This document shows positions 1 through 14,243 of a stretch of DNA of 64,000 nt, piece after piece. The position numbers were made by a program, and so were the translations under genes. The DNA comes from Marinifilum sp. D737 (GTDB lineage Bacteria; Bacteroidota; Bacteroidia; Bacteroidales; Marinifilaceae). The DNA lies in contig NZ_JANQCD010000013.1 of assembly GCF_026672275.1 (NCBI RefSeq), forward strand, positions 1 through 64,000, written 5' to 3'. The first letter of the stretch is position 1, and each line of letters starts with the position of its first letter. The notes beneath the pieces were generated by a model, which ran no database searches, was not told the DNA's origin, and was given only the letters and a program-made list of their open reading frames with translations.

Positions 1-28
1 CGGTGTTTAATACTTCAAAATTTTTCAT
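1..28 (-). CDS. GG-leader peptide, 5' end only (cut by window edge)
   Basis: Reading the minus strand from the ATG at 28-26 gives MKNFEVLNT before the window ends. These nine residues equal the start of the complete GG-leader peptide at 104-196. The nucleotides 1-32 and 169-200 agree at about 30 of 32 positions, including the bases just before the start codon. It is therefore a tandem paralogue 168 bp away. The leader end and the core are not visible, so only the leader family can be claimed. Confidence 0.6.
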
Positions 29-103: not shown

Positions 104-196
104 TTATACAAGAATGTCTTCGTTGATCATTTTGTCTTGATATCCACCTTTAATGTTTTTTAAATCTTCAGTGTTTAATACTTCGAAATTTTTCAT
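104..196 (-). CDS. Short double-glycine leader peptide, 30 aa
   Basis: The minus strand encodes a 30-residue peptide. Its first 18 residues, MKNFEVLNTEDLKNIKGG, match the Bacteroidota bacteriocin-type leader pattern: Met-Lys start, hydrophobic and acidic positions, then Gly-Gly. C39-peptidase ABC exporters cleave after such GG pairs. The predicted core is only 12 residues, YQDKMINEDILV, with no Cys. That is short for a bacteriocin and closer in size to a signalling peptide. A two-part promoter-like sequence lies 44 bp upstream (240-272). No exporter is next to it; the nearest visible one is at 17484. The GG leader is seen directly; export and role are inferred. Confidence 0.65.
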   Translation of the reverse strand: MKNFEVLNTEDLKNIKGGYQDKMINEDILV

Positions 197-200: not shown

Positions 201-239
201 ACAGTTTCTTTTTTAAGTTTTTTAGGAAACAATTACACC

Positions 240-272
240 CCTTTATTCCGGTTTTTAGAAAAAGGTAACCCT
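240..272 (-). promoter_or_regulatory. Candidate ECF sigma promoter, copy A
   Basis: On the minus strand this reads AGGGTTACC, 14 bases, GGAATAAAGG. The same two blocks at the same spacing occur before the sigma gene (4899-4931) and, with small changes, before the HTH gene (13516-13548). Here it lies 44 bp upstream of the GG-leader peptide start. A T-rich stretch precedes it, as in copy B. The two-block layout with a fixed gap fits a -35/-10 pair for an alternative sigma factor; an operator is the alternative. Confidence 0.6.
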
Positions 273-383
273 GAGTTTGAAAGTTTTTTTAAAAAAAAGT
301 GAAAAAAACTGTATATATTTAAATCCTTTTAAGAAAGATTGCGTACATAATGCATTGTTTCTAAGAAGATTAAGAAAAACCAC

Positions 384-3218
384 TTGAGCGTGAAAAAAAA
401 TCTAAAAAAAATTCTGCTTTTCTCTCTTTTACTTGTTTTGCTGGCAGGCGAAAACAAGAATTTAGCATTTACATCAATATTTTCTGAAGATCAGAAAACT
501 GAAAATTTATCTCCAGATTCTATTCTTGTTAAGCAGGTGAATAGAGCTATGGAGTTTTATAGATCTCGCGATTTCAATTATGCGGTACAATCCTTTGAAA
601 ATGCGATACAAACAATTGAAAATACTGTAGTTACTGATCAGAATATGATTTACCGCACCTATGTAAATTTTGGTGTGATTAAAAAAAGATTGGGGAAAAT
701 AACAGATGCACTTAAATATTTTAAACTTGCCGAGGATTTTACACTTAAAAATTATGGGATAGAATCAGCAAAATTGGTTCCTATTTATGTAAATACAGGT
801 AATATTTATAATGAACTATTGGATTTATTTAAGGCTCAGACTTATTATGAGAAAGCATTGTCATTGATAGATAATAGTGATTCAAGATATCTTTCACAAA
901 TCAACAATAATCTTGGAAATATCCATTATAAGAGGAATGAATATGAAATAGCATTGGAATTTTTAAAAAAGTCTTTGTTAATAAAGCAAAAAAATGACGA
1001 TAAAAATATTTCACCAACTCTTAATGGTATTGCTAATTGTTATAGAAGTTTAAAAGAATATGATTTTGCGGATTCTTATTATCAGCAGAGTATAGATAAA
1101 TTAAAATCAAATGGAGATTCAGATCATTATTATTTAGGTGATTTATATTTGAATTATGGAATCTTCCAAAATGAAATAAAGAATCATCAGAATGTACTCA
1201 AATATTTAGAATTGGCTTATGGTATTTACCTAAGTAATTTTGGTCCTAAACATCCCGATGTGGCCAATTGCCTGATGAATATGGGTGAATTTTATGGGGA
1301 GCAAAAGCAAAATATTACTTCTCTAAACTATTACCAAAAAGCGATTATTTCTGAATTGGATAACTTTTCGGATAGTACAATTTATACTAATCCCGATTTA
1401 AATGAAATTGAACCGCAAATATCAATACTAAGTATTTTAAAAGGTAAGGCAAAGGGATTTTCAAATTTATACAGGGAAAATGGGAAAGTTAGTGAGCTTG
1501 ATTTTAGCTTGGATACCTATGATTTATGTCTAAATATTATTGATAAGATAAGAATTGGTTACCAGGATGAACAAAGTAAGTTTGCTTTATCGCAGAACGA
1601 AAAAGATACCTATACCTTAGCCATTGAAATTGCAGTAAAATTATATGAACTTACCAAAGATATTAGCTATAAAGAAAAAGCTTTTAAATATGCAGAGCGA
1701 TCGAAAGCAGCAAGTTTGATGTCTTCTTTGAATGATGTGAATGCCAAAAATGTAGGAGGAATCCCTGTTGAATTGCAGGAAGAGGAACAACAATTGAGAA
1801 AAGATATTGCAAGCTTTCGAGAAAAAATATATGAGGAACGTAAAAAGTTAAATTCTGATCGAAAAAAGATTTCGGAATGGCAAGGAAAATTGTTCGAATT
1901 GAATGAAAGTTATAATCAAATGGTACTTCGTTTCGAAGAAGATTATCCGAAGTACTATGATCTGAAATATAAGAATAATACTATTGAAATATCAGAGCTT
2001 CAGTCCAGACTATCTTCGGATGAAATACTAATTGAATATTCTATTTCAGACTCTTCACTTTTTACTTTTATTGTCACTTCTGATTCATTTGAAATAAAAA
2101 AACAAAAAATCAATTCAGATAGTTTAAGTTACCATATCGAGGAGGTTAGGAATGCTTTAAAAACGAATGATTTTGCAGAAAATAGTTCTGATTTTTATCA
2201 ACGTTATACAAAGTCAGCTTTTAATTTATATCAAACTTTTATTGGTCCACATAGTAAAGTAATTCAAAATAAGAAACTTGTTATTATACCAGATGGCAAG
2301 ATGGCTTATGTACCTTTTGGGGTTTTGATTAAGCAAGAAGCTAATCCTGATCGTATGAATTATAGGGATTTAGATTATCTAATTAAATCTAATACCATAA
2401 CATATCAGAATTCTGCAACGATTGGTTTTTCTATAGAACCTGCTGGATTTAGTTTTACAACTAGTAAATCAGTATTGGCGTTTGCACCATCATACAATGG
2501 AATTGATGATTCAATTTTATACACCGAACGAGCATATAGAGACAAGTTGTATCCTTTGCCATATACCAAAGAAGAGGTTAATAATATTTCGAACGTAATG
2601 GAAGGTGATTTGTACTTGGATGATTTTGCAACCGAACAAAATTTTAAAGATCATGCAAGTGATTATGATGTTCTTCACCTGGCCATGCATACAATTATAG
2701 ATGATGAGAATCCAATGTATTCGAAACTGGTTTTTACTCAAACAAGTGATACGGTTCAGGACGGATTATTGAATACGCATGAAATTTATAACATGAATTT
2801 TAATGCCAGAATGGTAGTCTTAAGTGCTTGTAATACAGGTGATGGTAAGCTTTTAAAGGGTGAGGGTGTTATGAGTTTGGCCAGAGGATTCTTTTATGCT
2901 GGATGTCCTAGTATTATTATGACCTTATGGACGGTTGAAGACCAAACCGGTTCTAATTTAATGACCAACTTTTATGGCTATCTTTCGCAAGGATTCGAGA
3001 AAGATGAAGCTCTTCGCCAGGCTAAGTTAAAATATCTGGAAACTGCCGATCCTCTCAAGTCACATCCTTATTTTTGGTCAGGATATGTTACCATGGGTGA
3101 TGTTGAACCATTATATGATTTCGATATTATGAATAACTTGGTTTATATTGGATTTGGTGGGGTTGTCTTGTTGTTTTTAATCGTTTTTAGGAGAAGAATT
3201 AGAAGAAGAGTAGCATAA
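384..3218 (+). CDS. TPR-CHAT protein (caspase-like peptidase domain), membrane anchored
   Basis: The 944-residue protein has an N-terminal hydrophobic signal or anchor (about residues 8-24), a TPR array over about 50-450, a charged coiled coil around 470-530, and a C-terminal CHAT domain (about 600-910). The CHAT His-Cys dyad is visible as H769 (LAMH) and C816 (LSACNTG). A final membrane helix near 922-938 ends in an Arg-rich tail. CHAT domains are caspase-like cysteine peptidases; TPRs bind partners. The start is TTG at 384 or GTG at 390, two codons apart; either is possible. The sigma/anti-sigma pair lies convergently downstream, a layout known for TPR-CHAT proteins in Bacteroidota. Substrate unknown. 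Confidence 0.88.
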   Translation: MSVKKNLKKILLFSLLLVLLAGENKNLAFTSIFSEDQKTENLSPDSILVKQVNRAMEFYRSRDFNYAVQSFENAIQTIENTVVTDQNMIYRTYVNFGVIKKRLGKITDALKYFKLAEDFTLKNYGIESAKLVPIYVNTGNIYNELLDLFKAQTYYEKALSLIDNSDSRYLSQINNNLGNIHYKRNEYEIALEFLKKSLLIKQKNDDKNISPTLNGIANCYRSLKEYDFADSYYQQSIDKLKSNGDSDHYYLGDLYLNYGIFQNEIKNHQNVLKYLELAYGIYLSNFGPKHPDVANCLMNMGEFYGEQKQNITSLNYYQKAIISELDNFSDSTIYTNPDLNEIEPQISILSILKGKAKGFSNLYRENGKVSELDFSLDTYDLCLNIIDKIRIGYQDEQSKFALSQNEKDTYTLAIEIAVKLYELTKDISYKEKAFKYAERSKAASLMSSLNDVNAKNVGGIPVELQEEEQQLRKDIASFREKIYEERKKLNSDRKKISEWQGKLFELNESYNQMVLRFEEDYPKYYDLKYKNNTIEISELQSRLSSDEILIEYSISDSSLFTFIVTSDSFEIKKQKINSDSLSYHIEEVRNALKTNDFAENSSDFYQRYTKSAFNLYQTFIGPHSKVIQNKKLVIIPDGKMAYVPFGVLIKQEANPDRMNYRDLDYLIKSNTITYQNSATIGFSIEPAGFSFTTSKSVLAFAPSYNGIDDSILYTERAYRDKLYPLPYTKEEVNNISNVMEGDLYLDDFATEQNFKDHASDYDVLHLAMHTIIDDENPMYSKLVFTQTSDTVQDGLLNTHEIYNMNFNARMVVLSACNTGDGKLLKGEGVMSLARGFFYAGCPSIIMTLWTVEDQTGSNLMTNFYGYLSQGFEKDEALRQAKLKYLETADPLKSHPYFWSGYVTMGDVEPLYDFDIMNNLVYIGFGGVVLLFLIVFRRRIRRRVA

Positions 3219-3238
3219 GTATTAAAAGATATAGATTG

Positions 3239-3269
3239 AAAGCCTGAAACATTGTTTTAGGCTTTTTTT
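3239..3269 (+). terminator. Terminator after TPR-CHAT gene
   Basis: An imperfect stem (AAAGCCTGAAAC paired with GTTTTAGGCTTT) with a T-run lies about 20 bp after the stop codon. Confidence 0.75.
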
Positions 3270-3523
3270 GGTGTAACAACTAGGTTTAATCTTGCTAAAA
3301 ACTATTCGTGATTTGTAATTTCACATCAAAGTGGATGGGTATTAAAATTGGTCTTCATTGATGAAGACACTTCTGTAATACATCAATTTTTGTGTGAGAA
3401 TACAAGTAGTAATAATTTATAATACACATGGAGGCCATTAGTTTTTAGAGCGTTAAGTTTTTAAAGTCACTGTTTTTTTAATTATTCTATCATTAATTCT
3501 TGTATTCGATTTTAGAAAAAAGG
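3270..3523. other. Non-coding spacer between convergent genes
   Basis: AT-rich sequence between two terminators. No open frame with a recognisable product was found on either strand. Confidence 0.5.
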
Positions 3524-3552
3524 AAAGCCGCTCAATCTAATTGAACGGCTTT
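3524..3552 (-). terminator. Terminator after the anti-sigma gene
   Basis: The stem AAAGCCG-TCAAT/ATTGA-CGGCTTT lies just past the stop of the minus-strand anti-sigma gene and is followed on that strand by a T-rich run. Confidence 0.7.
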
Positions 3553-3579
3553 GTATATGTGTTAATGAATGAGTGTAAT

Positions 3580-4329
3580 CTATTCCAGCTTACTAAGAAT
3601 TTCCTGTGCTTTTGCTTTATAAAAACTATTTCCTCGAGCAATTGTATTAAACTGCTTAATGGCTTTGTCTCTTTCATTAGTCATTAAGTAGCAAAATCCT
3701 AAATACCATTCCGATTGCTCTATAAACAAGTTGTTTTTGTGCTTTATTACTCTGGTAAAATTCTTATTTGCTTTATGATATTCATTAATTTCTAAATTAG
3801 AAATACCTGAATAAAAGTTACTCGTAATATTTGTACTATCCTTGTCTAATATTTGCTTAAAAAGGGTTAAAGCCGTGTGATAATCCCTGGCTTCGTAACT
3901 CTTTAATGCTGTTACAAGCATATTATCGATATTAGCATCAGCAGAACGAGAATTATTTACTATCGCATATGGCTTGTAGTAATTGCTGTAAACTTTTTCA
4001 TTCGAATAGGAGCTCTTGTTGTTTACAAGGAACATTAAACTACCTAAACCAATAAATAATGCTAATGAAGCTGCAACAATATTCCATTTGGTTAAATACT
4101 TAAATTTGCGCTTCTCTTGTTCTTTAGGAGGTATTTCTATTGCCTCTAGCTTGCTTCTTAGGTCCATAATGTCGTTTTCCATTATAGCCTCGTCAACCTC
4201 TTGATGCAAATCCAGCTCCATCTGTAGGTCTGTATCATCAAGAAGGTCCTTCTCAAATTCCTTTAGTTGGTCGTCAGATAAACCACCATCCAGGAAATCC
4301 TCAATACGGTCAAAATTCATATCACTCAT
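3580..4329 (-). CDS. Anti-sigma-like membrane protein with TPR domain
   Basis: The start at 4329 (MSDMNFDRIEDFLDGG) overlaps the sigma stop by 8 bp as ATGAGTGA, which implies translational coupling; an ATG 27 bp upstream is less likely. The N-terminal 80 residues are acidic and helical (FLDGGLSDDQLKEFEKDL), typical of Bacteroidota anti-sigma proteins. One membrane helix follows (WNIVAASLALFIGLGSLMFLV), then an extracytoplasmic part with about three TPR-like helix pairs ending ILSKLE. The likely role is to hold the sigma factor at the membrane and release it on a signal sensed by the TPR part. No zinc-finger Cys/His set is visible. Confidence 0.75.
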   Translation of the reverse strand: MSDMNFDRIEDFLDGGLSDDQLKEFEKDLLDDTDLQMELDLHQEVDEAIMENDIMDLRSKLEAIEIPPKEQEKRKFKYLTKWNIVAASLALFIGLGSLMFLVNNKSSYSNEKVYSNYYKPYAIVNNSRSADANIDNMLVTALKSYEARDYHTALTLFKQILDKDSTNITSNFYSGISNLEINEYHKANKNFTRVIKHKNNLFIEQSEWYLGFCYLMTNERDKAIKQFNTIARGNSFYKAKAQEILSKLE

Positions 4330-4888
4330 CATATACTTCTTTAAATTCATTATCACTTTTAATACTCTCTATCAGCGTTTGTTTACACTGATGTTTCCTT
4401 TTCTTTGCATACTTCTCACTCTTATAGCCCATTATATCGGCAATTTCTTTTAGTGAGATTTTGTCTAAAGCAAGTTGAAGAACTTTCTTACAATCCGGAC
4501 CAAGTTTTTGGAAGTGTTTCTGGTATAGTCGATACCTCTCAGTTTGGTCATAAGTGTCAGAGGCTTCGTCTAGCCTATTATCCAGGACTCCTTCCGAATT
4601 GATTTCATTACTGTTCTTTTTCTTTTCAAGTTGCTTTAACCACAAAAGTCTGCAAATGGAATAGATGTATGTTTTAAAGTTACAACTAAGAACCAATGGT
4701 TCTTTTTTCATTTTACGATAGATTACAATAATAGCTTCTTGGAAAAGATCGCGTGCATCCTCCTCGTTCCCATTATTGTTCTCGATAAAATTGCGAATAC
4801 TCGGAAAGAACTTTTTGTAGATGTAATTTAATACATCATTATTGCTCATACTTATTCCCTCAAGTATCGCTTCAGTAGTGTAATCCAT
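4322..4888 (-). CDS. ECF-type RNA polymerase sigma factor
   Basis: The 188-residue protein has a sigma-2 region (about 25-95, with EDARDLFQEAIIVIYRKM) and a sigma-4 helix-turn-helix (about 130-178, with KISLKEIADIMGYKSEKYAKKRKHQC). It sits first in a two-gene operon with the anti-sigma-like gene. A promoter-like element (4899-4931) is only 10 bp from the start codon, which suggests autoregulation and a very short 5' leader. This sigma subgroup is known next to TPR-CHAT proteins. Possible targets are the genes behind the other two copies of the same element. Confidence 0.87.
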   Translation of the reverse strand: MDYTTEAILEGISMSNNDVLNYIYKKFFPSIRNFIENNNGNEEDARDLFQEAIIVIYRKMKKEPLVLSCNFKTYIYSICRLLWLKQLEKKKNSNEINSEGVLDNRLDEASDTYDQTERYRLYQKHFQKLGPDCKKVLQLALDKISLKEIADIMGYKSEKYAKKRKHQCKQTLIESIKSDNEFKEVYDE

Positions 4889-4898
4889 ATTTTCTATC

Positions 4899-4931
4899 CC
4901 TTTATTCCTTTTATGGCAAAAAGGTAACCCT
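4899..4931 (-). promoter_or_regulatory. Candidate ECF sigma promoter, copy B (autoregulatory)
   Basis: On the minus strand this reads AGGGTTACC, 14 bases, GGAATAAAGG. Both blocks are identical to copy A and the spacing is the same. It directly precedes the sigma gene. The sequence AAAGTGAAAAAAA just upstream also occurs near copy A. Confidence 0.65.
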
Positions 4932-5330
4932 CAAAAAGTGAAAAAAATTAAAAAAAATATCAACCTTACACGTAAGTGATTGAAAGTAAAATAGATAACA
5001 GATAAAAAAAATGATTTTTTTTCATTTTTTTTTTTATTTATTATCATAAGCCAAAGCAAGATACTATTTATATTCAAATTTGCTTACTGCAAAAGCTTAT
5101 TTTTTATGATGAAATAATAAAAATGTGATGTAAGCGTTCAAAAAAATAAAGTGAATGTCTAATTAAACTAGAGGCTAGTAGAACAATTATGCTTTAAATT
5201 TTATATCAAAATTAGTATATCACAGTTGTAATTGGGAGATCAATTCTAATAATTTGGATTTTAGAAATGATTAAGTAATCTATCCAACTAAAATATAAAT
5301 GCACAATTAAAAAAAAGGTATAAAACAAAA
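4932..5330. other. AT-rich non-coding region
   Basis: Very AT-rich, with long A and T runs around 5003-5045. I see no gene, tRNA or clear repeat here. Confidence 0.5.
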
Positions 5331-5358
5331 AAATCGGTTTTCATTCGAAAACCGATTT
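5331..5358 (-). terminator. Terminator after the tRNA-Val pair
   Basis: A perfect 11-bp stem (AAATCGGTTTT/AAAACCGATTT) with a 6-base loop lies 3 bp past the 3' end of the second tRNA and is followed on the minus strand by a T-run. Confidence 0.85.
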
Positions 5359-5361
5359 TTG

Positions 5362-5436
5362 TGGGCGATATAAGATTCGAACTTATGACCCCTTGGGTGT
5401 AAACCAAGTGCTCTGAACCAACTGAGCTAATCGCCC
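5362..5436 (-). tRNA. tRNA-Val (anticodon TAC), copy 2
   Basis: This 75-nt cloverleaf has acceptor stem GGGCGAT/ATCGCCC, D-arm AGCTCAGTTGGTTCAGAGC, anticodon stem CTTGG/CCAAG with loop TTTACAC, and T-loop TTCGAAT. The anticodon TAC reads GTN valine codons. The CCA end is not encoded. It differs from its neighbour only by a paired change in the T-stem. Confidence 0.95.
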
Positions 5437-5463
5437 CTGTTATTGGGAAATTTTGCTTTTTTG

Positions 5464-5538
5464 TGGGCGATATAGGATTCGAACCTATGACCCCTTGGGT
5501 GTAAACCAAGTGCTCTGAACCAACTGAGCTAATCGCCC
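5464..5538 (-). tRNA. tRNA-Val (anticodon TAC), copy 1
   Basis: The fold and anticodon match the copy at 5362-5436, 27 bp away. It is probably transcribed first in a two-tRNA unit. The T-stem here has a G-C pair where the other copy has A-U. Confidence 0.95.
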
Positions 5539-5679
5539 TTGCCCTTAAAAGCGATGCAAATATAAGGTGGAATATTTTTATCTGCAAGAATAATTTTCAA
5601 AAAAATGAAAAAAATATTTCTGAATGACCTTAAAATTCGAGGAAAGCTTTAATTTTATCACTCGTAAAAAATTGATACT

Positions 5680-6030
5680 ATGGATAATAATTTAGAGAGA
5701 GACTGGAATAGTTTGTTATATAAAATTTCTGAAGAATTTAATGTTGATGCTGATTTAAATGGAACTTTGCTTTTAATTGGCATACAAGAACGAGGTTTAG
5801 GGTTTAAGGAAACTTATTCAAAAGAGGAAAAGTGGGATCACATCGATTTGGCAACATGTACACTACTGATGAAATGGAATTACTATTCTATTGAAGGATA
5901 TGATGAAGACAATTGGCCTATATTTGTAAAGAACAAAATGGTTCCATCCTTTTCAAAAGACAAAGAAAATCAATTGTTAAAATCATCGATTGTAGAATAT
6001 TTTAAAGACAATGGATATTTTAACGATTAA
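5680..6030 (+). CDS. Conserved-looking hypothetical cytoplasmic protein, 116 aa
   Basis: A small acidic protein with no signal peptide or membrane helix and a Trp/Tyr-rich centre (WDHIDLATCTLLMKWNYYSIEGYDED). The family is not recognised. It starts with ATG and ends 23 bp before the cyclophilin gene, so the two are probably co-transcribed. The codon pattern looks like that of its neighbours, which supports a real gene; the function is unknown. Confidence 0.65.
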   Translation: MDNNLERDWNSLLYKISEEFNVDADLNGTLLLIGIQERGLGFKETYSKEEKWDHIDLATCTLLMKWNYYSIEGYDEDNWPIFVKNKMVPSFSKDKENQLLKSSIVEYFKDNGYFND

Positions 6031-6053
6031 ATAACAAACCTATACACATTAAA

Positions 6054-6866
6054 ATGAAGAAACTACTTTACCTGGCCTTACTACTTGCAATGGTATCCTG
6101 CCAACAAAAATTAGAATTAGGAAAGAAAAACAGAATTGTTGAAATTGAAACTAAGTATGGTAACATCAAAATTAAGCTATATGACGAAACTCCATTACAT
6201 CGTGATAACTTCGTAAAATTAGCCCATGCCGATTATTTTGATGGTACATTATTCCACAGAGTAATCGATGGTTTTATGATACAAGGTGGAGATCCTGATT
6301 CTAAAGCAGCCAAACCTGGTGTTAGGTTAGGTGAAGGTGGTCCGGGATATCAAATAGATGCAGAATTTAATCCTGCTTTATTTCACAAAAGGGGAGTAAT
6401 TGCTGCAGCAAGAGAAGGTGATGCTGTTAATCCACAAAAGAAGTCATCAGGTTCGCAATTTTATTTGGCTCAAGGTAGAGTATATACTCACGGTGGTTTG
6501 GATACCTTGTTAATGAAATTGAATGATAGAGTGAAAAATCAAATTTTTGAAAAGGCTCAAAAAGATAAGGCTACTGAGATTATGAAATATCAATCGGAGG
6601 GTGACATGGATAAGGTTTCAGATTTGATTGATAAAATTCAAGTTGAAGTAGACTCTATATTTAGTACGCATCAAGTTAAGTTTTCACAGGCTCAGGTTGA
6701 TGCTTATACAACAGTAGGCGGAATTCCTCACTTGGATGGGAATTATACTGTTTTTGGTGAAGTAATCGAAGGTATTGAGTTTATTGATAGTATTGCTAAA
6801 GTGAAAAGGGATCAATTTGATCGACCATTAGAGGACGTAGCTATGAAAATAAAAATCGTTCAATAA
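6054..6866 (+). CDS. Cyclophilin-type peptidyl-prolyl isomerase, lipoprotein
   Basis: Catalyses cis-trans isomerisation of X-Pro bonds during folding of exported proteins. The N-terminus MKKLLYLALLLAMVSCQQ is a lipoprotein signal with a lipobox Cys at residue 16. Cyclophilin motifs are visible: FHRVIDGFMIQGGDP, SSGSQFYLAQG and YTVFGEVIEG. A helical insert of about 70 residues splits the domain between SQFYLAQGRVYT and TTVGGIPHLDGNYTVFG, as in other Bacteroidota members. The next gene is a paralogue. A terminator follows. Confidence 0.92.
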   Translation: MKKLLYLALLLAMVSCQQKLELGKKNRIVEIETKYGNIKIKLYDETPLHRDNFVKLAHADYFDGTLFHRVIDGFMIQGGDPDSKAAKPGVRLGEGGPGYQIDAEFNPALFHKRGVIAAAREGDAVNPQKKSSGSQFYLAQGRVYTHGGLDTLLMKLNDRVKNQIFEKAQKDKATEIMKYQSEGDMDKVSDLIDKIQVEVDSIFSTHQVKFSQAQVDAYTTVGGIPHLDGNYTVFGEVIEGIEFIDSIAKVKRDQFDRPLEDVAMKIKIVQ

Positions 6867-6887
6867 AAGAATAGAACGAATAGGAGG

Positions 6888-6917
6888 GCTCCGGAAATTA
6901 TTTCGGAGCTTTTTTTG
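6888..6917 (+). terminator. Terminator after first cyclophilin gene
   Basis: A GCTCCG/CGGAGC stem with extra A-T pairs and a T7 run lies 20 bp after the stop. Confidence 0.8.
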
Positions 6918-7047
6918 TGATGAATTTTAATGATATCTATCTTACACCACTGAAACTTATTTTATCATTAAGGTGAAATGCCGATATACATCTGAACATT
7001 ATTTAAATGATAATCGGTATTAGTTCAGTTTTTTTAAAAGAATAGCA

Positions 7048-7872
7048 ATGAGAAAATTAGCCATACTTCTGATTTTATTTATATTTCAATTTTCTGTTAA
7101 GAATACTTTCGCGCAAGGAACCAATTCAATTATTCTAATTGAGACCAATTTGGGTAATATGAAGGTAATACTCTACAAGGAAACCCCTAAGCATCGTCAG
7201 AATTTTTTACAATTGGTGGAAAACGATCATTTCGATGGTACACTTTTTTATAGAGTAATTAAAGGTTTTGTGGCTCAGGGGGGATCGCAAGACTCAAGAA
7301 ATGCACCAGCAGGTAAAGCCATTGGATATGGAGATGCCAATAGAACCATACAATCAGAATTTAATGAAAAGTTTTTTCATAAGAAGGGAGCGCTTGCTTC
7401 TCCACGTCAGCCCGATAAGGTGAATATTTTTAAAGAATCGGATGTGTCGCAGTTTTATATTGCACATGGAAGGGTATTTACCAATGAAGAATTAGATGCC
7501 ATGGAAAAGGAGGTTAATGTTCCTTTAAGGAAAAGGATTGTCAAGAGATATTTGACGCCGAAAAAACGAGAGATTTTGGATTCCTTAAAAAAGGCCAAAA
7601 AGGTAACGGAGTTTCGTGCGATCGCAAAAAAAATAAAAGAATCAATAGAGTTTGATTACACTGCATCAGCTGAAAAGTTGGAGTTCACGCCTGAACAAAG
7701 AAAAGCATATACTACAGTTGGTGGAGTACCACATTTAGACAATAATTATACAGTTTTTGGTGAGGTAATTAGCGGATTAGAGGTTTTGGATAAAATTGTA
7801 AAGCTGCAAACAGATTCCAACGATCGACCTTATACTGATGTAAAGATGAAAGTAAAAATCTTAAAGTATTAA
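7048..7872 (+). CDS. Cyclophilin-type peptidyl-prolyl isomerase, exported
   Basis: Paralogue of the preceding gene with the same layout: signal peptide (MRKLAILLILFIFQFSV, cleavage near TFA-QG, no lipobox Cys), FYRVIKGFVAQGG, DVSQFYIAHG, a Lys-rich helical insert of about 70 residues, then TTVGGVPHLDNNYTVFGEVISG. It should act as a soluble periplasmic folding catalyst. The catalytic-site Arg in FYRV is kept. The stop codon overlaps the left end of the inverted-repeat element that follows. Confidence 0.9.
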   Translation: MRKLAILLILFIFQFSVKNTFAQGTNSIILIETNLGNMKVILYKETPKHRQNFLQLVENDHFDGTLFYRVIKGFVAQGGSQDSRNAPAGKAIGYGDANRTIQSEFNEKFFHKKGALASPRQPDKVNIFKESDVSQFYIAHGRVFTNEELDAMEKEVNVPLRKRIVKRYLTPKKREILDSLKKAKKVTEFRAIAKKIKESIEFDYTASAEKLEFTPEQRKAYTTVGGVPHLDNNYTVFGEVISGLEVLDKIVKLQTDSNDRPYTDVKMKVKILKY

Positions 7873-8083
7873 CCTGAGTTCGATTTTAAAATATCATACA
7901 CAGAAAATCAGATTTATTAAAGTAAAGATTGGATGAAGATGATTTTTTCAAAGAATTTGCCTGCTTTTGGTATAAATTTCCTCAAATTATCTTGAAATAT
8001 CCCGATATTCCTTCGAAAATTTGAGAAAATTTCTACTCAAAACCAGTGTAAACTGTGACAATATTTTAAATCGAACTCAGGTT
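7871..8083. mobile_element. MITE-like 213-bp inverted-repeat element
   Basis: The left end (AACCTGAGTTCGATTTTAAA, 7871-7890) is repeated inverted at 8061-8083 with one base of length difference. A second, nested inverted repeat (7974-7988 with 8018-8032) lies inside. ATT flanks both ends and could be a 3-bp target duplication. There is no coding capacity. This fits a non-autonomous transposable element or a long RNA hairpin. The left end falls inside the stop codon of the cyclophilin gene. Confidence 0.5.
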
Positions 8084-8114
8084 ATTAAATGCTTTTGGTA
8101 TTTAGCCAATTGCT

Positions 8115-8148
8115 TTTGGCCAATGAGAAAAAAGTTTTTGTAACTTTG
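8115..8148 (+). promoter_or_regulatory. Candidate housekeeping promoter of pheS
   Basis: TAACTTTG at 8141-8148 matches the Bacteroidota -7 consensus TAnnTTTG, with TTTG at 8115-8118 near the -33 position. It lies 33 bp before the start codon. Confidence 0.5.
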
Positions 8149-8180
8149 CCGACTGTTGCAATAAATAAAGAAGTTATATC

Positions 8181-9203
8181 ATGCTTGACAAAATAAAAAA
8201 CCTGCTTGATGAGTTGAATGGATTTTCAGCTACAACACTGGAAGAGGTAGAACAGTTCAGAATTAAACACCTTAGTAAAAAAGGTAGCATTGCTTCGTTG
8301 TTTGCCGATTTTAAAACTGTTCCAAACGAGGAGAAAAAAGCTGTTGGACAAGCTCTAAATGAGCTTAAAACAGTAGCTATGGATAAAGTAAATGCTTTAA
8401 AGGAAAGTTTTACCGGTGCTGAATTTGGCAAGTCTGGTTTGGATTTGACTTTGTCTGGCGATCCTGTAAAGTTAGGTTCTCGTCACCCACTTTCTTTAGT
8501 AAGAAATGAAATTACAGAAATTTTCGCTCGTTTAGGATTTACCATTTCTGAAGGTCCTGAGATTGAAGATGACTGGCACAACTTCTCGGCATTGAACTTC
8601 CCAGAGGAGCATCCGGCACGAGATATGCAGGATACTTTCTTTATCGAGAAAAATCCAGATGTAATTCTAAGAACTCATACATCATCGGTACAGGTTCATG
8701 ATTTGCAAGAAATGGAATTGCCAATTCGTTGTTTAACTCCAGGTAGAGTATTCCGTAACGAAGCAATTTCGGCTCGTGCACACTGTATTTTCCACCAAAT
8801 TGAGGCTTTGTATGTAGATGAGAAAGTTTCTTTTGCTGATTTGAAGCAAACACTTACTTATTTTGCAAAAGAATTCTTTGGTGAGAAAACTGAAATTAGA
8901 TTGCGTCCATCCTATTTTCCATTTACTGAGCCATCAGCAGAGGTAGATGTTACTTGTTCGCTTTGTGGCGGAAAAGGATGTAATGTATGTAAAGGAACTG
9001 GTTGGCTTGAAATTTTAGGTTGCGGTATGGTTGATCCAAATGTATTGGAATTAAATGGTATCGATAGCAAGAAATATTCAGGTTTTGCATTGGGAATGGG
9101 AATTGAGCGTATTACCATGTTAAAATATGGTATTAAAGATCTTCGCTTGTTCTTCGAGAACGATATCCGTTTCCTTGAGCAATTTACTGCAGCAGGATTC
9201 TAA
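8181..9203 (+). CDS. pheS: Phenylalanine--tRNA ligase alpha subunit
   Basis: Charges tRNA-Phe as part of the alpha2-beta2 enzyme. At 340 residues it has the usual length. The N-terminal coiled coil (1-90) is followed by the class II catalytic core: the motif 2 region has RVFRNEAISARAHCIFHQIEALYVD, and motif 3 has GFALGMGIERITMLKYGI. A four-Cys stretch (CSLCGGKGCNVCKG) near 257-270 is seen in several PheS proteins. pheT is not adjacent in this window. Confidence 0.97.
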   Translation: MLDKIKNLLDELNGFSATTLEEVEQFRIKHLSKKGSIASLFADFKTVPNEEKKAVGQALNELKTVAMDKVNALKESFTGAEFGKSGLDLTLSGDPVKLGSRHPLSLVRNEITEIFARLGFTISEGPEIEDDWHNFSALNFPEEHPARDMQDTFFIEKNPDVILRTHTSSVQVHDLQEMELPIRCLTPGRVFRNEAISARAHCIFHQIEALYVDEKVSFADLKQTLTYFAKEFFGEKTEIRLRPSYFPFTEPSAEVDVTCSLCGGKGCNVCKGTGWLEILGCGMVDPNVLELNGIDSKKYSGFALGMGIERITMLKYGIKDLRLFFENDIRFLEQFTAAGF

Positions 9204-9229
9204 GAAAAGCACAATAGATTTAAAATATA

Positions 9230-9260
9230 AATGCCTTCCATTATGGGAGGCATTTTTTTT
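9230..9260 (+). terminator. Terminator after pheS
   Basis: An AATGCCTTCC/GGGAGGCATT stem followed by eight T's. Confidence 0.8.
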
Positions 9261-9295
9261 ATGAAGAGACGCAGGGCCGTGCTTCTGTACATGTT

Positions 9296-9715
9296 TTATT
9301 CCTCGTGGTAAATAATCTCCGATGTAACAGGAATTACTTTTTTGTACAAAGCGCTAACACCACAATATTCTTCTTCTGATAGTTTTACAGCTCGCTCAAT
9401 TTTGGCATGAGGAAAATCCTTACCAAAGAATTCATAAGTGATATGCATGTTTTTATAATAACTTGGTTGTTCTTCGGTTAATTCGCCCTCAACCGAAACT
9501 TTTATATCGCGAACTTCAACGCGCATTTTTTTAAGTATCATTGCAATATCGATACCAGTACAACCAGCAAGTGCTGTTAACATTAACTTTTTAGGACTTA
9601 CACCTGAGCCATCGCCACCTACTTGTGTGCTGGCATCTGTTATTATTTCGTGTCCATCCATATCGGCTTTATAAGCAAGATGACCTTGCCAATTCATTTC
9701 TACTTTGTGTTTCAT
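9296..9715 (-). CDS. OsmC/Ohr family protein
   Basis: Members are thiol peroxidases that reduce organic hydroperoxides with a Cys pair. At 139 residues the length is typical. The first Cys is in LTALAGCTGIDIAMILKKM (near 52) and the second in EEYCGVSALYKKV (near 118). The substrate is not predictable and the assignment to the OsmC rather than the Ohr branch is uncertain. It is a single gene facing pheS. Confidence 0.88.
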   Translation of the reverse strand: MKHKVEMNWQGHLAYKADMDGHEIITDASTQVGGDGSGVSPKKLMLTALAGCTGIDIAMILKKMRVEVRDIKVSVEGELTEEQPSYYKNMHITYEFFGKDFPHAKIERAVKLSEEEYCGVSALYKKVIPVTSEIIYHEE

Positions 9716-10010
9716 TGTTTATAAAGTTATAAGCAATAAGCGACAGGTTTCAAGGAATAAAACTGCACTTATTTAACTCGGTGTATTTGATATTTTCGTT
9801 TACTAAAATTAGTAAGAATTTAATTCATATAAGTCTTGAATGGACTATTGGAGAAGTAAAACTTAAATTACTATATTTAAACCTGATTCTAAAATTGGTG
9901 AAATTAGAATTAAGAAATGATTAAAACATCAGTAAAAACTGCTGTTTTGGTGTGTTTTTAAGATGTTTGAAAAAACTATTTTATAACAAGTTTATTCAGT
10001 AAGCGTTGAA

Positions 10011-10715
10011 ATGAAGCAAAATATTAATCTTCCAAACTGCAATCAGTTGGCTGAGAAGTTCAGTGTTAAGTTTCCTGATCTGGGTGTTGACGATCAAAAT
10101 CTTTTATTTTGGGATGAAGATGTACAATTCTTTAAACGTGGAAGTGTAATCTATAAAGAAGGAGATTTTGCCAAAGGTTGCTTTTTTCTTTTTTCAGGTA
10201 TTTTAAAAGTATTTAAGACCGGAATTGAAGGAAAAGAACAAATTATACGATTTGCAAAAGAAGGCGATTTAATTGGATTTAGATCGGTATTAAGTCACGA
10301 ACGATTTTGCACTTCCGCAAAGGTTATCGAAGATGCCGTTGTGTGTTTTATCCCATCAAATGTTCTTACCAAACTGATACAGGAGAACTCAAACTTTGCC
10401 TTACAGTTAATGAAAGTTACTTGTGCCGAGTTGGGAGAGGCAAATAGTTATATTACCGATATAGCTCAAAAAACCGTTCGAGAGCGTTTGGCAGAGGTTT
10501 TGGTACAATTAGAGGATACCTTTGGATTAAATGAAGAAGGTACCTTAAAAATATCGCTTACGCGCGAGGAATTGGCCAATATGGTTGGTACAGCTACCGA
10601 GTCGGTAATTCGATTGTTATCGGAGTTTAAATCGGATAAGCTGATAGAACTAAACGGTAGAAAGATAAAGATATTAAATAGCGAATCGTTGCGAAAAACC
10701 GGTGGTTTGATCTAG
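10011..10715 (+). CDS. Crp/Fnr family transcriptional regulator
   Basis: 234 residues. An N-terminal cyclic-nucleotide-binding-like beta barrel (about 25-150, with KRGSVIYKEGDFAKGCFFL) and a C-terminal winged helix (about 155-230, with LTREELANMVGTATESVIRLLSEF). There is no N-terminal Fe-S Cys cluster as in Fnr. The ligand and targets are unknown. The gene is monocistronic with its own terminator. Confidence 0.93.
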   Translation: MKQNINLPNCNQLAEKFSVKFPDLGVDDQNLLFWDEDVQFFKRGSVIYKEGDFAKGCFFLFSGILKVFKTGIEGKEQIIRFAKEGDLIGFRSVLSHERFCTSAKVIEDAVVCFIPSNVLTKLIQENSNFALQLMKVTCAELGEANSYITDIAQKTVRERLAEVLVQLEDTFGLNEEGTLKISLTREELANMVGTATESVIRLLSEFKSDKLIELNGRKIKILNSESLRKTGGLI

Positions 10716-10739
10716 AAAATATTACATTGATGTATGGAT

Positions 10740-10768
10740 CCCGTTCAATTTGTTGAGCGGGTTTTTTT
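10740..10768 (+). terminator. Terminator after Crp/Fnr gene
   Basis: A CCCG-TTCAA/TTGA-GCGGG stem with a T7 run. Confidence 0.8.
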
Positions 10769-10802
10769 GTTTATAAAAGTCTGGAAAGGTCAAAGAGTCA
10801 CA

Positions 10803-10826
10803 CAGTCTAACAGTCTAACAGTCTAA
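10803..10826. repeat. Three tandem copies of CAGTCTAA
   Basis: Three perfect 8-bp units in a row, flanked on both sides by GTCACACAGT-like sequence (10797-10806 and 10830-10839). No function is known. Confidence 0.6.
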
Positions 10827-10892
10827 CGGTCACACAGTAAAATGGTCTATTGTATAGGTTGGGTAATCTGTTATCCCTTCTTAGGAGTGTAT

Positions 10893-11060
10893 TTAGTATT
10901 TCTCCCACATGCTTTTTACTGTTGTGCGAACCAGTAAAATAAAAACTATCGTGCTTATTGCGAATGCTATATAGCCATCGGTTTCGGGAATTCGAAATGA
11001 TACAAATGTTGTTATTATTAGGCAAAGGATAGTTGAGAATACCAATAAATAATCTTTCAT
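10893..11060 (-). CDS. Small two-helix membrane protein, 55 aa
   Basis: From the ATG at 11060 the protein MKDYLLVFSTILCLIITTFV... has two hydrophobic helices separated by a short loop with FRIPETDG, and ends KSMWEKY. An AGAAG sequence about 12 bp upstream could bind ribosomes. An in-frame start 45 bp further upstream would add a basic, Trp-rich segment. It is not recognised as a family. It could be chance in AT-rich DNA, but the two clean membrane segments favour a real gene. Confidence 0.4.
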   Translation of the reverse strand: MKDYLLVFSTILCLIITTFVSFRIPETDGYIAFAISTIVFILLVRTTVKSMWEKY

Positions 11061-11375
11061 AAAATTAATTCTTCTGAATAGCCAGTTGTACCATTTAAAT
11101 ATCACAATGAGCGTAAGCGAAACTGTGAAATATTAAATTGAAATGCTGATATATAATTACTTAGCCATTTGGAGTTATACGAACAGAGGGTTTATTAAAA
11201 TAATAAATCGGTATAAAAGTTAGGTGTTACACTTCTTAATAACAATATTTGAAATTAAGATTAACAAAGTTTAACATTTAATTTCGGTGTGATTCAATGA
11301 AATAAATTAACTTAATTCTCGTTTTTAAATATTATTATAATAAAACCACGCATTTTATAAATCCCAAATCCTAAA
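11061..11375. other. Non-coding region
   Basis: AT-rich spacer before the thioredoxin-like lipoprotein gene. No other gene or repeat is visible. Confidence 0.45.
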
Positions 11376-12737
11376 ATGAAAACATTACTACTACCCATTT
11401 TTGTGTTATGCTGTTTCACCTTGTTATCATGTAATGCTAAAAAAACAAACACTAAAGTTAATACTAAATCATCCCCAGATACCCTAAGTTTATCTGTTAC
11501 AATGGAGTCTGATGATGTATGCAATTTTAATTTTGTTGATGATTTTTATTTTGACCATCATATTCCTGTAGAGAGTGACTCTATTCTTCCTGGCGTTTGT
11601 AAAAAACACTATCCTTTAAAGTATAAGAAACAGATATTTGAATATTCGTGGATGCAGTTAAAACCTTTTAGAAGAGTTCAGCATTATTTTCTAATTGATA
11701 ATCGAAATAACAATTTAGATTTCACATTTAAGAATGGTGTATTAAGCTGGTCTAAAAACAATAGATTAATTCTTTTGGATAATATTTATGAAAGCTATTT
11801 GCCGATAAAAAAGCAATTAAATTTAGGATCTTACTCAAGTAAGGAATCGTTGATTAATCAAATTGATAGTATATACACTTCATATAAGAGCAAGTATGCT
11901 GATGAACCATTAAAACAACAGGTAAATCAGCTTCATCATGTTAATTATCTGCAAAAAATAGATCCATATAATCCAATTGTGATTGATTTTATAGTGAATA
12001 TGAAAGATGAACCTATTGCCTGTAAAATTACTGCAGATATTTTTATTGACTATATAAAGTATCATATCGAAAAAATCAATTATAAAAATTTGGAAAGCAG
12101 ATACTCTCCGGTTTTTATTGACTTGTTTACCAAAGCCATGTATCATTATTTACGAGATGTTGAAAATAAAGGAGATAGCCAAAATATTAATGGATTAAAC
12201 TGGTACAAACAAACCACCTACTATCAAAAGCACAAGGAAAAATTTGAACCGGAAATTACACCTATCGATGCTTCAGAATTTAAGAACAAGATCAAAAAAG
12301 TAAGTCTATTGGATGAAAATCAGAACATCCGAATGTTAGAAGACATTGTAAAAAATAATCCTGCCGACTTTTATCTGGTTGACTTTTGGGCTACCTGGTG
12401 TGGGCCTTGTAAATCTGGTATAAAAAAGATTAAAACACTGCCTGTTCCGAATAATGTTAAGGTTATCAACTTGAGTTTGGATAAGGTTCAAAACATTGAA
12501 AAATGGAAGCGATTTGTTAAGGAAAACGGTCAAAAATTAAGCTATCTAATCAACAAAAAAGATCTAAACAATAAAGACTTTATCAAATACATTCGTGTAA
12601 AATCCATACCTCGTTATTTAATCATCGATAAACATATGAACTTGGTTGATGAAGAATTTTACCGACCACACGAGTCTAAGTTTTTGACTGATTTGATGAA
12701 GATAAGTGCTGGTAATAATCAGATGGTTAACCAATAA
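11376..12737 (+). CDS. TlpA-like thioredoxin-fold lipoprotein
   Basis: 453 residues with a lipoprotein signal (lipobox LLSC, Cys near 19), a long N-terminal region of unknown fold, and a thioredoxin domain from about 310. The active site WATWCGPCKSG (CxxC) and the cis-Pro segment VKSIPRYLI are intact. Such proteins reduce or exchange disulfides in the periplasm, anchored to a membrane. Its place 1.3 kb before the two-Cys peptide locus is suggestive, but a link is not shown. The next gene starts 16 bp after the stop. Confidence 0.85.
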   Translation: MKTLLLPIFVLCCFTLLSCNAKKTNTKVNTKSSPDTLSLSVTMESDDVCNFNFVDDFYFDHHIPVESDSILPGVCKKHYPLKYKKQIFEYSWMQLKPFRRVQHYFLIDNRNNNLDFTFKNGVLSWSKNNRLILLDNIYESYLPIKKQLNLGSYSSKESLINQIDSIYTSYKSKYADEPLKQQVNQLHHVNYLQKIDPYNPIVIDFIVNMKDEPIACKITADIFIDYIKYHIEKINYKNLESRYSPVFIDLFTKAMYHYLRDVENKGDSQNINGLNWYKQTTYYQKHKEKFEPEITPIDASEFKNKIKKVSLLDENQNIRMLEDIVKNNPADFYLVDFWATWCGPCKSGIKKIKTLPVPNNVKVINLSLDKVQNIEKWKRFVKENGQKLSYLINKKDLNNKDFIKYIRVKSIPRYLIIDKHMNLVDEEFYRPHESKFLTDLMKISAGNNQMVNQ

Positions 12738-12753
12738 ATTGTGCTGCAATCTA

Positions 12754-13434
12754 ATGAAACATTTAGTATTGATTTTATTGTGTTTGTTAGGCAATTACAG
12801 TTTGCAAAGCCAAGTTTATAACAAAAAAATCATCTATAAATACCAGGTTGAAAATTCCACGGCTAATGGAATACAGAAAAAGCAAATGATGTATTTGATC
12901 TGCAATGGTAAAGCTTGGGTTTTTGATTCCCAAAAACAATTTTCAATTGATTGGGTTGATGAAGGAAAGGATATATTCTCACCAAACAATAGTACAGGAG
13001 TTATTGATAACGTTAAAAGAATATGGCTACATCCACCCAGACATGACGTCTATTTTGTACATGAATTTACTCCTTTTCCAGAGGCAAGGCTTCCTCTAAC
13101 AGTCGGTAAACAATGGACAACGGATTTTGGATATGTTTGGTCAAGTAAGGACCTAAATATACCAAATGGAGTTAAAGTGAAGCATCACTATAAGGTAGTA
13201 TCGCAATTCGAGGAGTATTCTGATATTTTGCAACGCAAAATTAACTGTTTTAAGATTGAGGGATGGTTGAATCATCCTTTAAACCAATCGAAATGGATTG
13301 GTGTGTTCAATAAAGAGTTGGGATTTATAAGAATGGAGTTTTTCAATATCAACAAATCAATTACGAAAATGACCTTATCGGATTCTTTTGATTGGGATCA
13401 ATGCAAGAAGAGGTTTGGCTTGTTTTCCTTGTGA
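12754..13434 (+). CDS. Secreted hypothetical protein, 226 aa
   Basis: The start is placed at 12754, giving a clear signal peptide (MKHLVLILLCLLGNYSLQSQ). An upstream in-frame ATG at 12706 would overlap the previous gene and bury the signal. The mature part is beta-rich with many aromatic residues. The family is not recognised. It is probably co-transcribed with the thioredoxin-like lipoprotein. Confidence 0.6.
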   Translation: MKHLVLILLCLLGNYSLQSQVYNKKIIYKYQVENSTANGIQKKQMMYLICNGKAWVFDSQKQFSIDWVDEGKDIFSPNNSTGVIDNVKRIWLHPPRHDVYFVHEFTPFPEARLPLTVGKQWTTDFGYVWSSKDLNIPNGVKVKHHYKVVSQFEEYSDILQRKINCFKIEGWLNHPLNQSKWIGVFNKELGFIRMEFFNINKSITKMTLSDSFDWDQCKKRFGLFSL

Positions 13435-13515
13435 TTATAAATATATGATAGTATACTGTATATCTATTTAATTAACATCACAAATTAAATTTATTTGCAT
13501 TTTTTAACATTTACT

Positions 13516-13548
13516 AGGGTTACTTTTTTATGATTTTAGGAATTAATA
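13516..13548 (+). promoter_or_regulatory. Candidate ECF sigma promoter, copy C
   Basis: AGGGTTACT, 14 bases, GGAATTAATA on the plus strand, 30 bp before the small HTH gene. The first block matches copies A and B at 8 of 9 bases and the second at 7 of 10, with the same spacing. It ties the peptide export locus to the sigma factor at 4322-4888. Confidence 0.5.
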
Positions 13549-13578
13549 GGTGTACTAAAACCAATTTAACACCAAAGA

Positions 13579-13776
13579 ATGAACATTACGGAAAATAAAG
13601 AAGTGAAGAAAAAAGTGATAAAATTAGCTGCTCATAAATCAACCGGTAGACCAAAAGAATTAGATGATATGCTGGGTTTTTGCGAACGGAATTTATACAG
13701 GATAATTGAGGCTATTAAAGATGAAGGAATAAATATTAGATATTCCCGTCCACTTAAATCATATATTATAGATTAA
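13579..13776 (+). CDS. Small helix-turn-helix protein, 65 aa
   Basis: A basic one-domain protein. The segment HKSTGRPKELDDMLGFCERNLYRIIEAIKDEG has the form of a DeoR-like HTH_11 helix-turn-helix, followed by a short wing (INIRYSRPLKSYIID). Proteins of this size and ending often sit beside GG-leader peptide genes in Bacteroidota. A sigma-type promoter element precedes it and a strong terminator follows, so it is its own unit. It probably binds DNA at the peptide locus; this is inferred. Confidence 0.7.
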   Translation: MNITENKEVKKKVIKLAAHKSTGRPKELDDMLGFCERNLYRIIEAIKDEGINIRYSRPLKSYIID

Positions 13777-13802: not shown

Positions 13803-13840
13803 AAAAACGCTCACTGCCAAAAATGGCAGTGAGCGTTTTT
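13803..13840 (+). terminator. Strong terminator after HTH gene
   Basis: A perfect 17-bp stem (AAAAACGCTCACTGCCA and its complement) with an AAAA loop. The stem itself ends in T5. It works in either direction by symmetry. Confidence 0.85.
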
Positions 13841-14030: not shown

Positions 14031-14243
14031 ATGAAAAAATTTGAAAAGTTTAAATTATCCAAAGAGGAAATTTCAGATGTATTAGGAGGAATTAGTTATT
14101 GTGATTTTATAGGTGTTGTTAATTACCTAGGTGATGGAAATAGAAATCAAATAGATCAATCTGTGATTTTGATGCAAAAATTTAATAGAGGAGAAATGCA
14201 GTTATCTGATTGGGATTATAATGGTAACCCACCTGCATGTTAA
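14031..14243 (+). CDS. GG-leader precursor peptide with two cysteines, 70 aa
   Basis: The leader MKKFEKFKLSKEEISDVLGG (20 residues) is a textbook double-glycine leader of the Bacteroidota type. The predicted 50-residue core starts ISYCDFIGVVNYLGDG and ends NGNPPAC. Its only cysteines are near its two ends (C24 and C70), so one disulfide would close the whole chain into a loop. The next genes encode a peptidase, a VKOR/thioredoxin fusion and a C39 ABC exporter, matching secretion and disulfide formation. A hairpin follows the stop. Antimicrobial or signalling activity is possible; neither is shown. Confidence 0.8.
   Translation: MKKFEKFKLSKEEISDVLGGISYCDFIGVVNYLGDGNRNQIDQSVILMQKFNRGEMQLSDWDYNGNPPAC

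Follow-up and report, generated by a model that had tools for sequence, protein, structure and literature searches.

A predicted ECF sigma factor regulon of double-glycine peptide arrays and small RNAs, linked to a TPR-CHAT gene, in Marinifilum and its relatives

Introduction

Streptococcal quorum sensing through ComABCDE combines a short exported peptide bearing a double-glycine (GG) leader with an autoinduced operon and a histidine kinase, and the sigma-E envelope response includes small RNAs. Features reminiscent of both are found together in a 64,000-nucleotide stretch of DNA from Marinifilum sp. D737 (contig NZ_JANQCD010000013.1, positions 1 to 64,000; hereafter the window), which encodes an extracytoplasmic function (ECF) sigma factor, a probable membrane-bound anti-sigma factor with tetratricopeptide repeats (TPR), a TPR-CHAT protein and GG peptides. 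A promoter-like motif occurs three times in this DNA, and we are highly confident, on the strength of genome comparisons, that it represents the -35/-10 promoter which the ECF factor encoded at 4322-4888 recognises, and that it marks the regulon of this factor.

Two described systems are among the closest. In Craspase, a type III-E CRISPR system, the TPR-CHAT protease Csx29 cleaves Csx30, an inhibitor of the ECF factor CASP-sigma (PMC10028731). In Myxococcus xanthus, the ECF factor DdvS is active once its transmembrane anti-sigma factor DdvA has been inactivated (PMC4374960; PDB 8rw5, 8rot). A membrane anti-sigma factor and an extracytoplasmic protease are likewise the components of the RseA/DegS/sigma-E pathway (PMC10028731). 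Similarly to Craspase, our locus encodes a TPR-CHAT protein, a putative protease, together with an ECF sigma factor and its probable inhibitor, and Craspase is the best PDB match of our CHAT model; however, our CHAT protein has a signal-like N terminus and a C-terminal hydrophobic helix, and a membrane TPR protein takes the place of Csx30 as the probable inhibitor. DdvA is also among the structural matches of the CHAT model, yet in our locus two separate genes encode TPR-CHAT and the probable anti-sigma factor, a small membrane protein. The sigma-E response shares with our prediction a membrane anti-sigma factor, an extracytoplasmic protease and small RNAs in the regulon, whereas the protein families differ, our RNAs have no Rfam match and our targets include peptide-export loci. 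As for ComABCDE, the likeness lies in the short GG peptide, the operon (predicted here to be autoinduced) and the histidine kinase; the one kinase scanned here matches only HisKA and HATPase_c, the output is an ECF sigma factor and the host is Gram-negative.

Within the same phylum, the ECF motif SM6 of Flavobacterium psychrophilum controls a sigma/anti-sigma operon and secretion genes (PMC9723704), target classes that recur in our system; its -10 box is CGT, whereas ours is GGAATAAA. Group ECF54 occurs in the context of CHAT, subtilase and carboxypeptidase domains, and proteolytic control without an anti-sigma factor has been proposed for it (PMC8999054). A class I anti-sigma domain is found near only 6% of the ECF factors of Bacteroidetes (PMC7406223). 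Among the matches listed in our literature searches, as far as their excerpts go, neither the motif nor the sigma factor nor the cassette is described; none of those listed for GGGTTACC with sigma and Bacteroid is relevant by title, and none of those listed for peptide pheromones in Bacteroidetes concerns a pheromone feeding an ECF factor.

The promoter motif and the sigma factor

The following features of the window are needed first:

236..272, minus strand: predicted sigma-dependent promoter of the GG-peptide array, with -35 GGGTTACCTTTT, -10 GGAATAAA and a conserved start region
104..196, minus strand: GG-leader peptide of 30 aa with core YQDKMINEDILV, the first in a tandem array (TIGR01847, 19.3 bits, cut-off 15.7)
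1..28, minus strand: next copy of the array, of which the contig end leaves only the start (from the sequence)
4895..4931, minus strand: predicted promoter of the sigma/anti-sigma genes (autoregulation), from the motif match and orthologue comparison
4322..4888, minus strand: ECF sigma factor, 188 aa (TIGR02937, 2.8e-18)
13516..13552, plus strand: predicted promoter of a small helix-turn-helix (HTH) gene, from the motif match
13579..13776, plus strand: 65-aa HTH protein (weak HTH_29 match, 0.049)

The initial annotation had reported a 33-bp motif of two blocks at three places, and this is borne out: AGGGTTACY-N14-GGAAT lies at 245-272 (minus), 4904-4931 (minus) and 13516-13543 (plus), the 33 bp being this 28-bp motif with five extra bases on its 3' side. 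The genes directly 3' of the three copies are those that had been named, for the 30-aa GG peptide, the ECF sigma factor and the 65-aa HTH protein, with 48, 15 and 35 nt, respectively, between the end of the 28-bp motif and the start codon. A search of the window gave three exact matches versus none in 100 shuffles. The absence of any further copy, also noted before, holds within the 64 kb, where the site at 10174-10201, with three mismatches, is noise. The genome-wide search with fixed spacing that had been suggested, run over 5.08 Mb in 130 contigs, returned six exact copies of AGGGTTAC-N15-GGAAT and none for the reversed control, and 11 sites were found at up to two mismatches to AGGGTTACYTTTT-N10-GGAAT. 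When three mismatches are allowed, the 30 real matches in the genome do not rise above the 38 control matches, and the three-mismatch sites are therefore noise. The conserved element is longer than first noted: in 124 distinct full-flank contexts, obtained from 132 rows minus L241, L281 and L211, it reads WGGGTTACYTTTT-N10-RGAATWAAKRRRTR, or about 37 bp, with an AA (93 and 97%) and a T at position 36 (90%) conserved outside the search pattern.

It could be argued that the motif merely represents a chance match or a dispersed repeat, given the low G+C content of this AT-rich sequence and the noise seen at three mismatches. Yet the shuffles gave no match, the reversed controls are near zero, conservation ends about 37 bp in, and 138 of the 158 sites classified below precede a classified gene or a conserved RNA. 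The shuffled and reversed controls refute this explanation, and practically no weight is left to it.

The ECF type of the sigma factor is supported by its profile scores (TIGR02937, 66.1 bits, cut-off 42.9; PF04542, 26.0, cut-off 24), and the gene shares 96-99% identity with its counterparts in five Marinifilum genomes. Of 56 family genomes, 22 contain a single orthologue, and in all 22 the motif stands directly 5' of the gene, an arrangement that predicts the autoregulation surmised in the initial annotation. The 22 genomes carry 147 copies of the motif, 3-14 each, with a total of nine in the reversed controls (one mismatch allowed). Among the 34 genomes that lack the sigma gene, 27 have no copy, five have one, and two, G031 and G032, have eight and four. 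The latter are fragmented assemblies (1180 contigs; 63% complete) of genus g11, in which seven of the nine genomes searched have the sigma gene; given the broken assemblies and the presence of the gene in those relatives, it may have been lost from the assemblies of G031 and G032 rather than from their genomes.

More distant homologues of the sigma factor (L101-L106, n=6) show 38-41% identity to it. GGGTTAC followed by a T run is kept before the sigma gene itself in three of the six (L101, L102 and L105), and a -10 of the AGTATTAA type is found in L101 and L102. The matching variant, at up to two mismatches, occurs six times in the L101 genome and eight times in that of L102 (controls 0 and 1), and the target kinds common to both are the sigma gene, a 424-425-aa lipoprotein-like protein and, by eye, a receiver-like protein. 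Such a pattern is what a sigma factor and a promoter changing together would give. The receiver-like protein (L333, L338) is thus a shared target of the distant sigma homologues; the arrays of the family end in a histidine kinase.

An alternative is that the motif serves another ECF factor or a DNA-binding activator, the sigma gene being merely one target. Each genome does hold 1-113 sigma-like candidates by a first search, some of which may be ECF genes; against this stand the co-distribution with this particular sigma gene, the 22 of 22 self-promoters and the -35 block kept before three of six homologues elsewhere. We regard another reader of the motif as improbable, and assign the promoter to the ECF factor at 4322-4888.

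Targets of the motif

The 158 sites (of 159) from the 22 sigma-bearing genomes plus G031 and G032 were classified by a simple first-open-reading-frame (ORF) rule, the remaining site lying at a contig start of G035. Not counted were L241 and L281, which served as control loci and come from sigma-less genomes, L211, which is a duplicate, and L002, which is the same site as one in L031. The motif precedes 22 sigma genes, 20 GG arrays in as many of the 22 sigma-bearing genomes, 27 small HTH genes, 13 and 14 members of two small-RNA families, and 42 ORFs with a hydrophobic N terminus (secreted, lipoprotein or membrane). The rule is crude in borderline cases: one of the 42, L221, has another GG peptide as its first ORF, and L279 is doubtful. 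Five of the 12 sites left without a gene belong to Ancylomarina, where a small membrane protein with a GTG start can be read by eye. Of the 11 sites that the Marinifilum genome itself has at up to two mismatches, two stand before gene-less stretches with a terminator within about 150 nt. The others precede the sigma gene, three small HTH genes and the genes of the GG peptide, of one C25-type and one S8 protease (families identified in the relatives L167 and L164), of a small secreted protein and of a lipoprotein-like protein. A Pfam scan of ten targets identified one C25 protease, one S8 protease, one protein with FG-GAP and SpvB-type domains, one with PKD domain and sorting tail, and one sub-cut-off SprT match; five of the ten had no Pfam match. 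Large secreted proteins stand behind one-mismatch copies of the motif in G031 and G033 (L253, L269, L252 and L277). Two of these, L253 and L269, are alike; L253 is the scanned protein with FG-GAP and SpvB-type domains, and L252, also scanned, had no Pfam match.

In the window, the HTH gene stands before a peptide-export locus:

13803..13840, plus strand: inverted repeat with T run, terminator-like, after the HTH gene (read by eye, absent from the terminator scan list)
14031..14243, plus strand: 70-aa GG-leader peptide of the export locus (GG-leader rule)
14308-15738, plus strand: M28 peptidase (profile search)
15803-17347, plus strand: C39/VKOR protein (profile search)
17484-19691, plus strand: C39 peptidase ABC exporter (profile search)
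19804-21111, plus strand: HlyD protein (profile search)

Two other motif-borne small HTH proteins of the same genome (L004 and L009) match HTH_11 above the cut-off. Across the family, a canonical GG-leader ORF lies within 1 kb in 11 of the 25 HTH loci tested (of 27 sites), compared with 2.2% of random 1-kb stretches without array peptides and 4.9% with them, these stretches being drawn from 20 loci of the family, the window included. Together with the 20 of 158 sites at GG arrays, this constitutes the enrichment before GG-leader genes for which a test had been suggested. The neighbours of the small HTH genes include LanC-like enzymes (L216, L188, L206), radical-SAM proteins (L246, L227) and a C39 exporter with HlyD (L196); the remaining loci have neighbours of other kinds.

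The regulon first suggested, joining TPR-CHAT, sigma/anti-sigma and GG peptides, is therefore supported, with two corrections. The sigma/anti-sigma genes and the GG peptides are joined by co-distribution, self-promoters and GG enrichment, but no copy of the motif was found that would drive TPR-CHAT; and beyond the GG peptides, the scope is wider than had been noted, extending to two small RNAs, secreted proteases and lipoproteins.

Two small RNAs

The first of the two putative small RNAs, sRNA-A, is about 95 nt long and combines a 5' stem and a terminator with an unpaired GTATGTAGT segment that does not vary. Ten of its 17 base pairs show changes on both sides, and its covariation is 0.570, versus 0.188-0.282 when slid. 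The stem begins about 5 nt after GAAT, which is consistent with a start site there. With its own predicted promoter, a conserved structure, a terminator and no conserved ORF, sRNA-A has the characters expected of a small RNA; sRNA-B has part of them. The latter is about 135 nt long and is conserved in sequence, promoter and terminator, and a conserved structure was rejected for it, as none of ten pairs changed on both sides. Folding z-scores were -3.8, -3.9 and -6.3 for sRNA-A (n=3) and -1.6 and -3.0 for sRNA-B (n=2). The possibility that these loci are tiny ORFs was rejected, since no ORF of at least nine codons is common to all members (all ten for sRNA-A), and Rfam gave no match in six small-RNA loci.

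Models of both RNAs were built without the promoter; most of the loci had originally been found via the motif, and 22 were used in building the models. The sRNA-A model has one match in each of 16 genomes, all sigma-bearing, and the sRNA-B model also matches in 16, of which 14 are sigma-bearing and the other two are G031 and G032. The motif, with 0-3 mismatches, is located at a near-fixed upstream distance in 31 of the 32 matches; the only one lacking it, in G026 (E 0.006), is also the weakest sRNA-B match. Five matches are new relative to the one-mismatch motif search (sRNA-A in G039, G028 and G030; sRNA-B in G027 and G026), and four of these carry the motif in its fixed place, with two, two, two and three mismatches. 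In G027, the sRNA-B gene (L326) is kept, and its promoter, 33 bases before the RNA match, has three mismatches and resembles a decaying copy.

The cassette, the TPR-CHAT protein and the GG-peptide arrays

Two further genes of the window complete the cassette:

3580..4356, minus strand: probable anti-sigma factor, with N-terminal helices, one hydrophobic (membrane) helix and C-terminal TPR
384..3218, plus strand: TPR-CHAT protein, 944 aa (CHAT PF12770, 6.6e-58), with an N-terminal hydrophobic stretch and a C-terminal hydrophobic helix

In most mapped loci of Marinifilum, Labilibaculum and Ancylomarina, the order is motif, sigma factor, TPR anti-sigma factor and, on the opposite strand, CHAT, followed by a second motif with tandem GG peptides divergent from CHAT; in L094 and L100, CHAT and array are not beside the sigma gene. 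The tie of TPR-CHAT to the regulon is thus its genomic linkage, divergent from the array. The anti-sigma protein, whose start is likely an internal ATG at 4350 or 4329, was modelled with helices at 3-63, a hydrophobic helix at 83-102 and TPR at 110-248 (mean pLDDT 76, below 50 at 64-87). The PDB matches of the model are TPR proteins, and zf-HC2 appeared among the scanned homologues only as a sub-cut-off match in L101. The CHAT model (pLDDT 75.6) has an N-terminal helix at 3-33 and a C-terminal helix at 913-943, and the topology predicted from the modelled helices would place both CHAT and the TPR domain of the anti-sigma factor outside the cytoplasm. The predicted catalytic dyad, His769/Cys816, is invariant in nine of nine sequences. 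The best PDB match of the CHAT model by Foldseek is the Craspase TPR-CHAT protein (8eey_B, 4.2e-15, TM-scores 0.42/0.51, 11% identity), with DdvA seventh (4.8e-13, TM-scores 0.23-0.26), and separase and plain TPR proteins after it, so that part of the Craspase match is due to the TPR coil; in a CHAT-profile sequence search of the PDB, the best 60 of 141 matches were mostly TPR proteins. No Cas7-11 or other CRISPR genes were noticed among the ORFs of the window and the mapped loci, where no dedicated search was made. CHAT lies beside the sigma gene in five of ten distant loci (L101, L102, L105, L107 and L110 of L101-L110), and L109 retains a TPR fragment that is truncated where the contig stops. 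An ORF with the signature KYRIPSARA.WW.Y, related between genera, occurs near the sigma locus in several of them (L089 3993-4424, L094 3881-4450, L095 2516-3070); it may resemble REP-associated transposases.

Hydrophobic residues at -4, -7 and -12 together with GG define double-glycine leaders, and the first peptide of each of 16 arrays has them. In each locus, one to six tandem GG peptides were identified, with low numbers frequently where a contig ends; for the window, two more copies and a histidine kinase lie on another contig (C65) of the same genome. A histidine kinase of 275-287 aa follows the array in 11 of 19 loci, several of the other eight reaching a contig edge, and HisKA and HATPase_c were confirmed in the scanned one. 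The cores, of 12-15 residues, are species-specific, and most close with an acidic pair plus a short hydrophobic tail (EDILV, DDCIV, EEAIV). In 19 loci, cores of one genome share 96% identity and those of different genomes, compared at equal core length, 57%, the corresponding values for leaders being 84% and 75%; even in the 26 pairs whose leaders diverge strongly within one genome (46% identity), core identity remains at 88%. That the cores mimic part of the sigma factor, the anti-sigma factor or CHAT was rejected in nine comparisons with shuffled cores, because the only one to beat all 60 shuffles (an Ancylomarina core against sigma) did not recur in the other two genera.

In G049 and G050, CHAT and the motif-GG unit lie together on a contig other than that of the sigma gene. 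In G025, a CHAT of 38% identity is adjoined by two longer GG peptides, both ending in PIEEDILFD, with looser promoter variants (two and four mismatches); here, too, the sigma gene is on a different contig. As the unit stays together apart from the sigma gene, CHAT is the tightest partner of the peptide, and this linkage argues for a direct relation of the two. At the place of the GG array, divergent from CHAT, L101 (14672) and L102 (6750) have small ORFs whose tails are acidic and rich in proline (PDPDPDPNP); they may or may not be its counterparts.

Discussion

The observations are probably best explained, as a whole, by a sigma regulon with a CHAT switch and a peptide ligand. In it, the sigma factor would transcribe its own operon, the GG-peptide arrays and the small HTH genes, often before peptide-modification and export loci, as well as secreted proteases, lipoproteins and the two small RNAs. 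At rest, the membrane-bound TPR protein would hold the sigma factor; the extracytoplasmic TPR-CHAT protease would inactivate this anti-sigma protein once its own TPR domain meets a ligand, and the exported acidic-tailed GG peptide, as the best ligand candidate, would create a positive feedback. The parts of this scheme differ in strength, the regulon having strong comparative support. We take proteolysis of the anti-sigma protein by CHAT to be the likeliest switch, with somewhat better than an even chance, because Csx29 of Craspase cleaves Csx30 and the predicted catalytic pair is kept in all nine sequences. That the GG peptide is the activating signal is a tentative idea, it being the likeliest of several possible ligands; the near-identity of the copies and their divergence between species bear on it indirectly. 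Rather unlikely, by our estimate, is the complete Gram-negative peptide circuit, in which exported GG peptides bind TPR-CHAT (or the TPR anti-sigma factor) and free the ECF factor so that more peptide is made, while HTH genes of export loci are switched as well and secreted proteases and small RNAs are produced.

Several observations weigh against this scheme. The structural matches of the CHAT model to 8eey_B and DdvA are loose and both proteins are TPR-rich, and CHAT has no motif copy of its own. No CHAT was noticed beside the sigma gene in L103, L104 and L106, where the motif is also not clear 5' of that gene, or in L108, and the L105 genome has a single copy of the variant. G031 and G032 possess their motif copies without a detected sigma gene. 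The co-distribution covers this sigma gene alone, and its counts are not independent, the genomes being kin. Finally, 12 of the 158 sites have no gene by the rule and eight an unclassified ORF.

The regulon might instead respond to competition or envelope damage, with CHAT sensing damage or a foreign molecule and the array peptides being antagonistic or housekeeping products, not a signal; we consider this quite possible, somewhat short of an even chance. The LanC-like and radical-SAM clusters, C39 exporters, C25 and S8 proteases and the FG-GAP/SpvB-type protein look antagonistic or secretory. Moreover, no GG array was noticed in the distant cassettes L101-L110, which counts against the peptide as ligand and suggests that the ancestral signal was probably something else. 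On the other hand, no immunity-like gene was noticed by eye in the array operon, where no search was made and a histidine kinase is found instead, and the near-identical cores of an array are unlike a mixed arsenal.

If the sigma regulon with its CHAT switch is correct, a caspase-like TPR-CHAT protein gains a concrete set of partners (sigma factor, membrane anti-sigma factor and peptide) at a locus without noticed CRISPR genes, and its readable output, a promoter present 3-14 times in each genome, makes CHAT activation directly testable. The TPR-type membrane partner, present in several lineages, helps to fill the anti-sigma gap of Bacteroidetes, and sRNA-A and sRNA-B would be ECF-controlled RNAs of Bacteroidota. 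The circuit may be a new one for cell-to-cell or envelope signalling; should the peptide turn out to act as the signal, Bacteroidota would have a peptide pheromone that feeds an ECF factor. Two tandem tRNA-Val (tac) genes, near-identical by look, lie at 5361-5538 of the window, upstream of the sigma operon.

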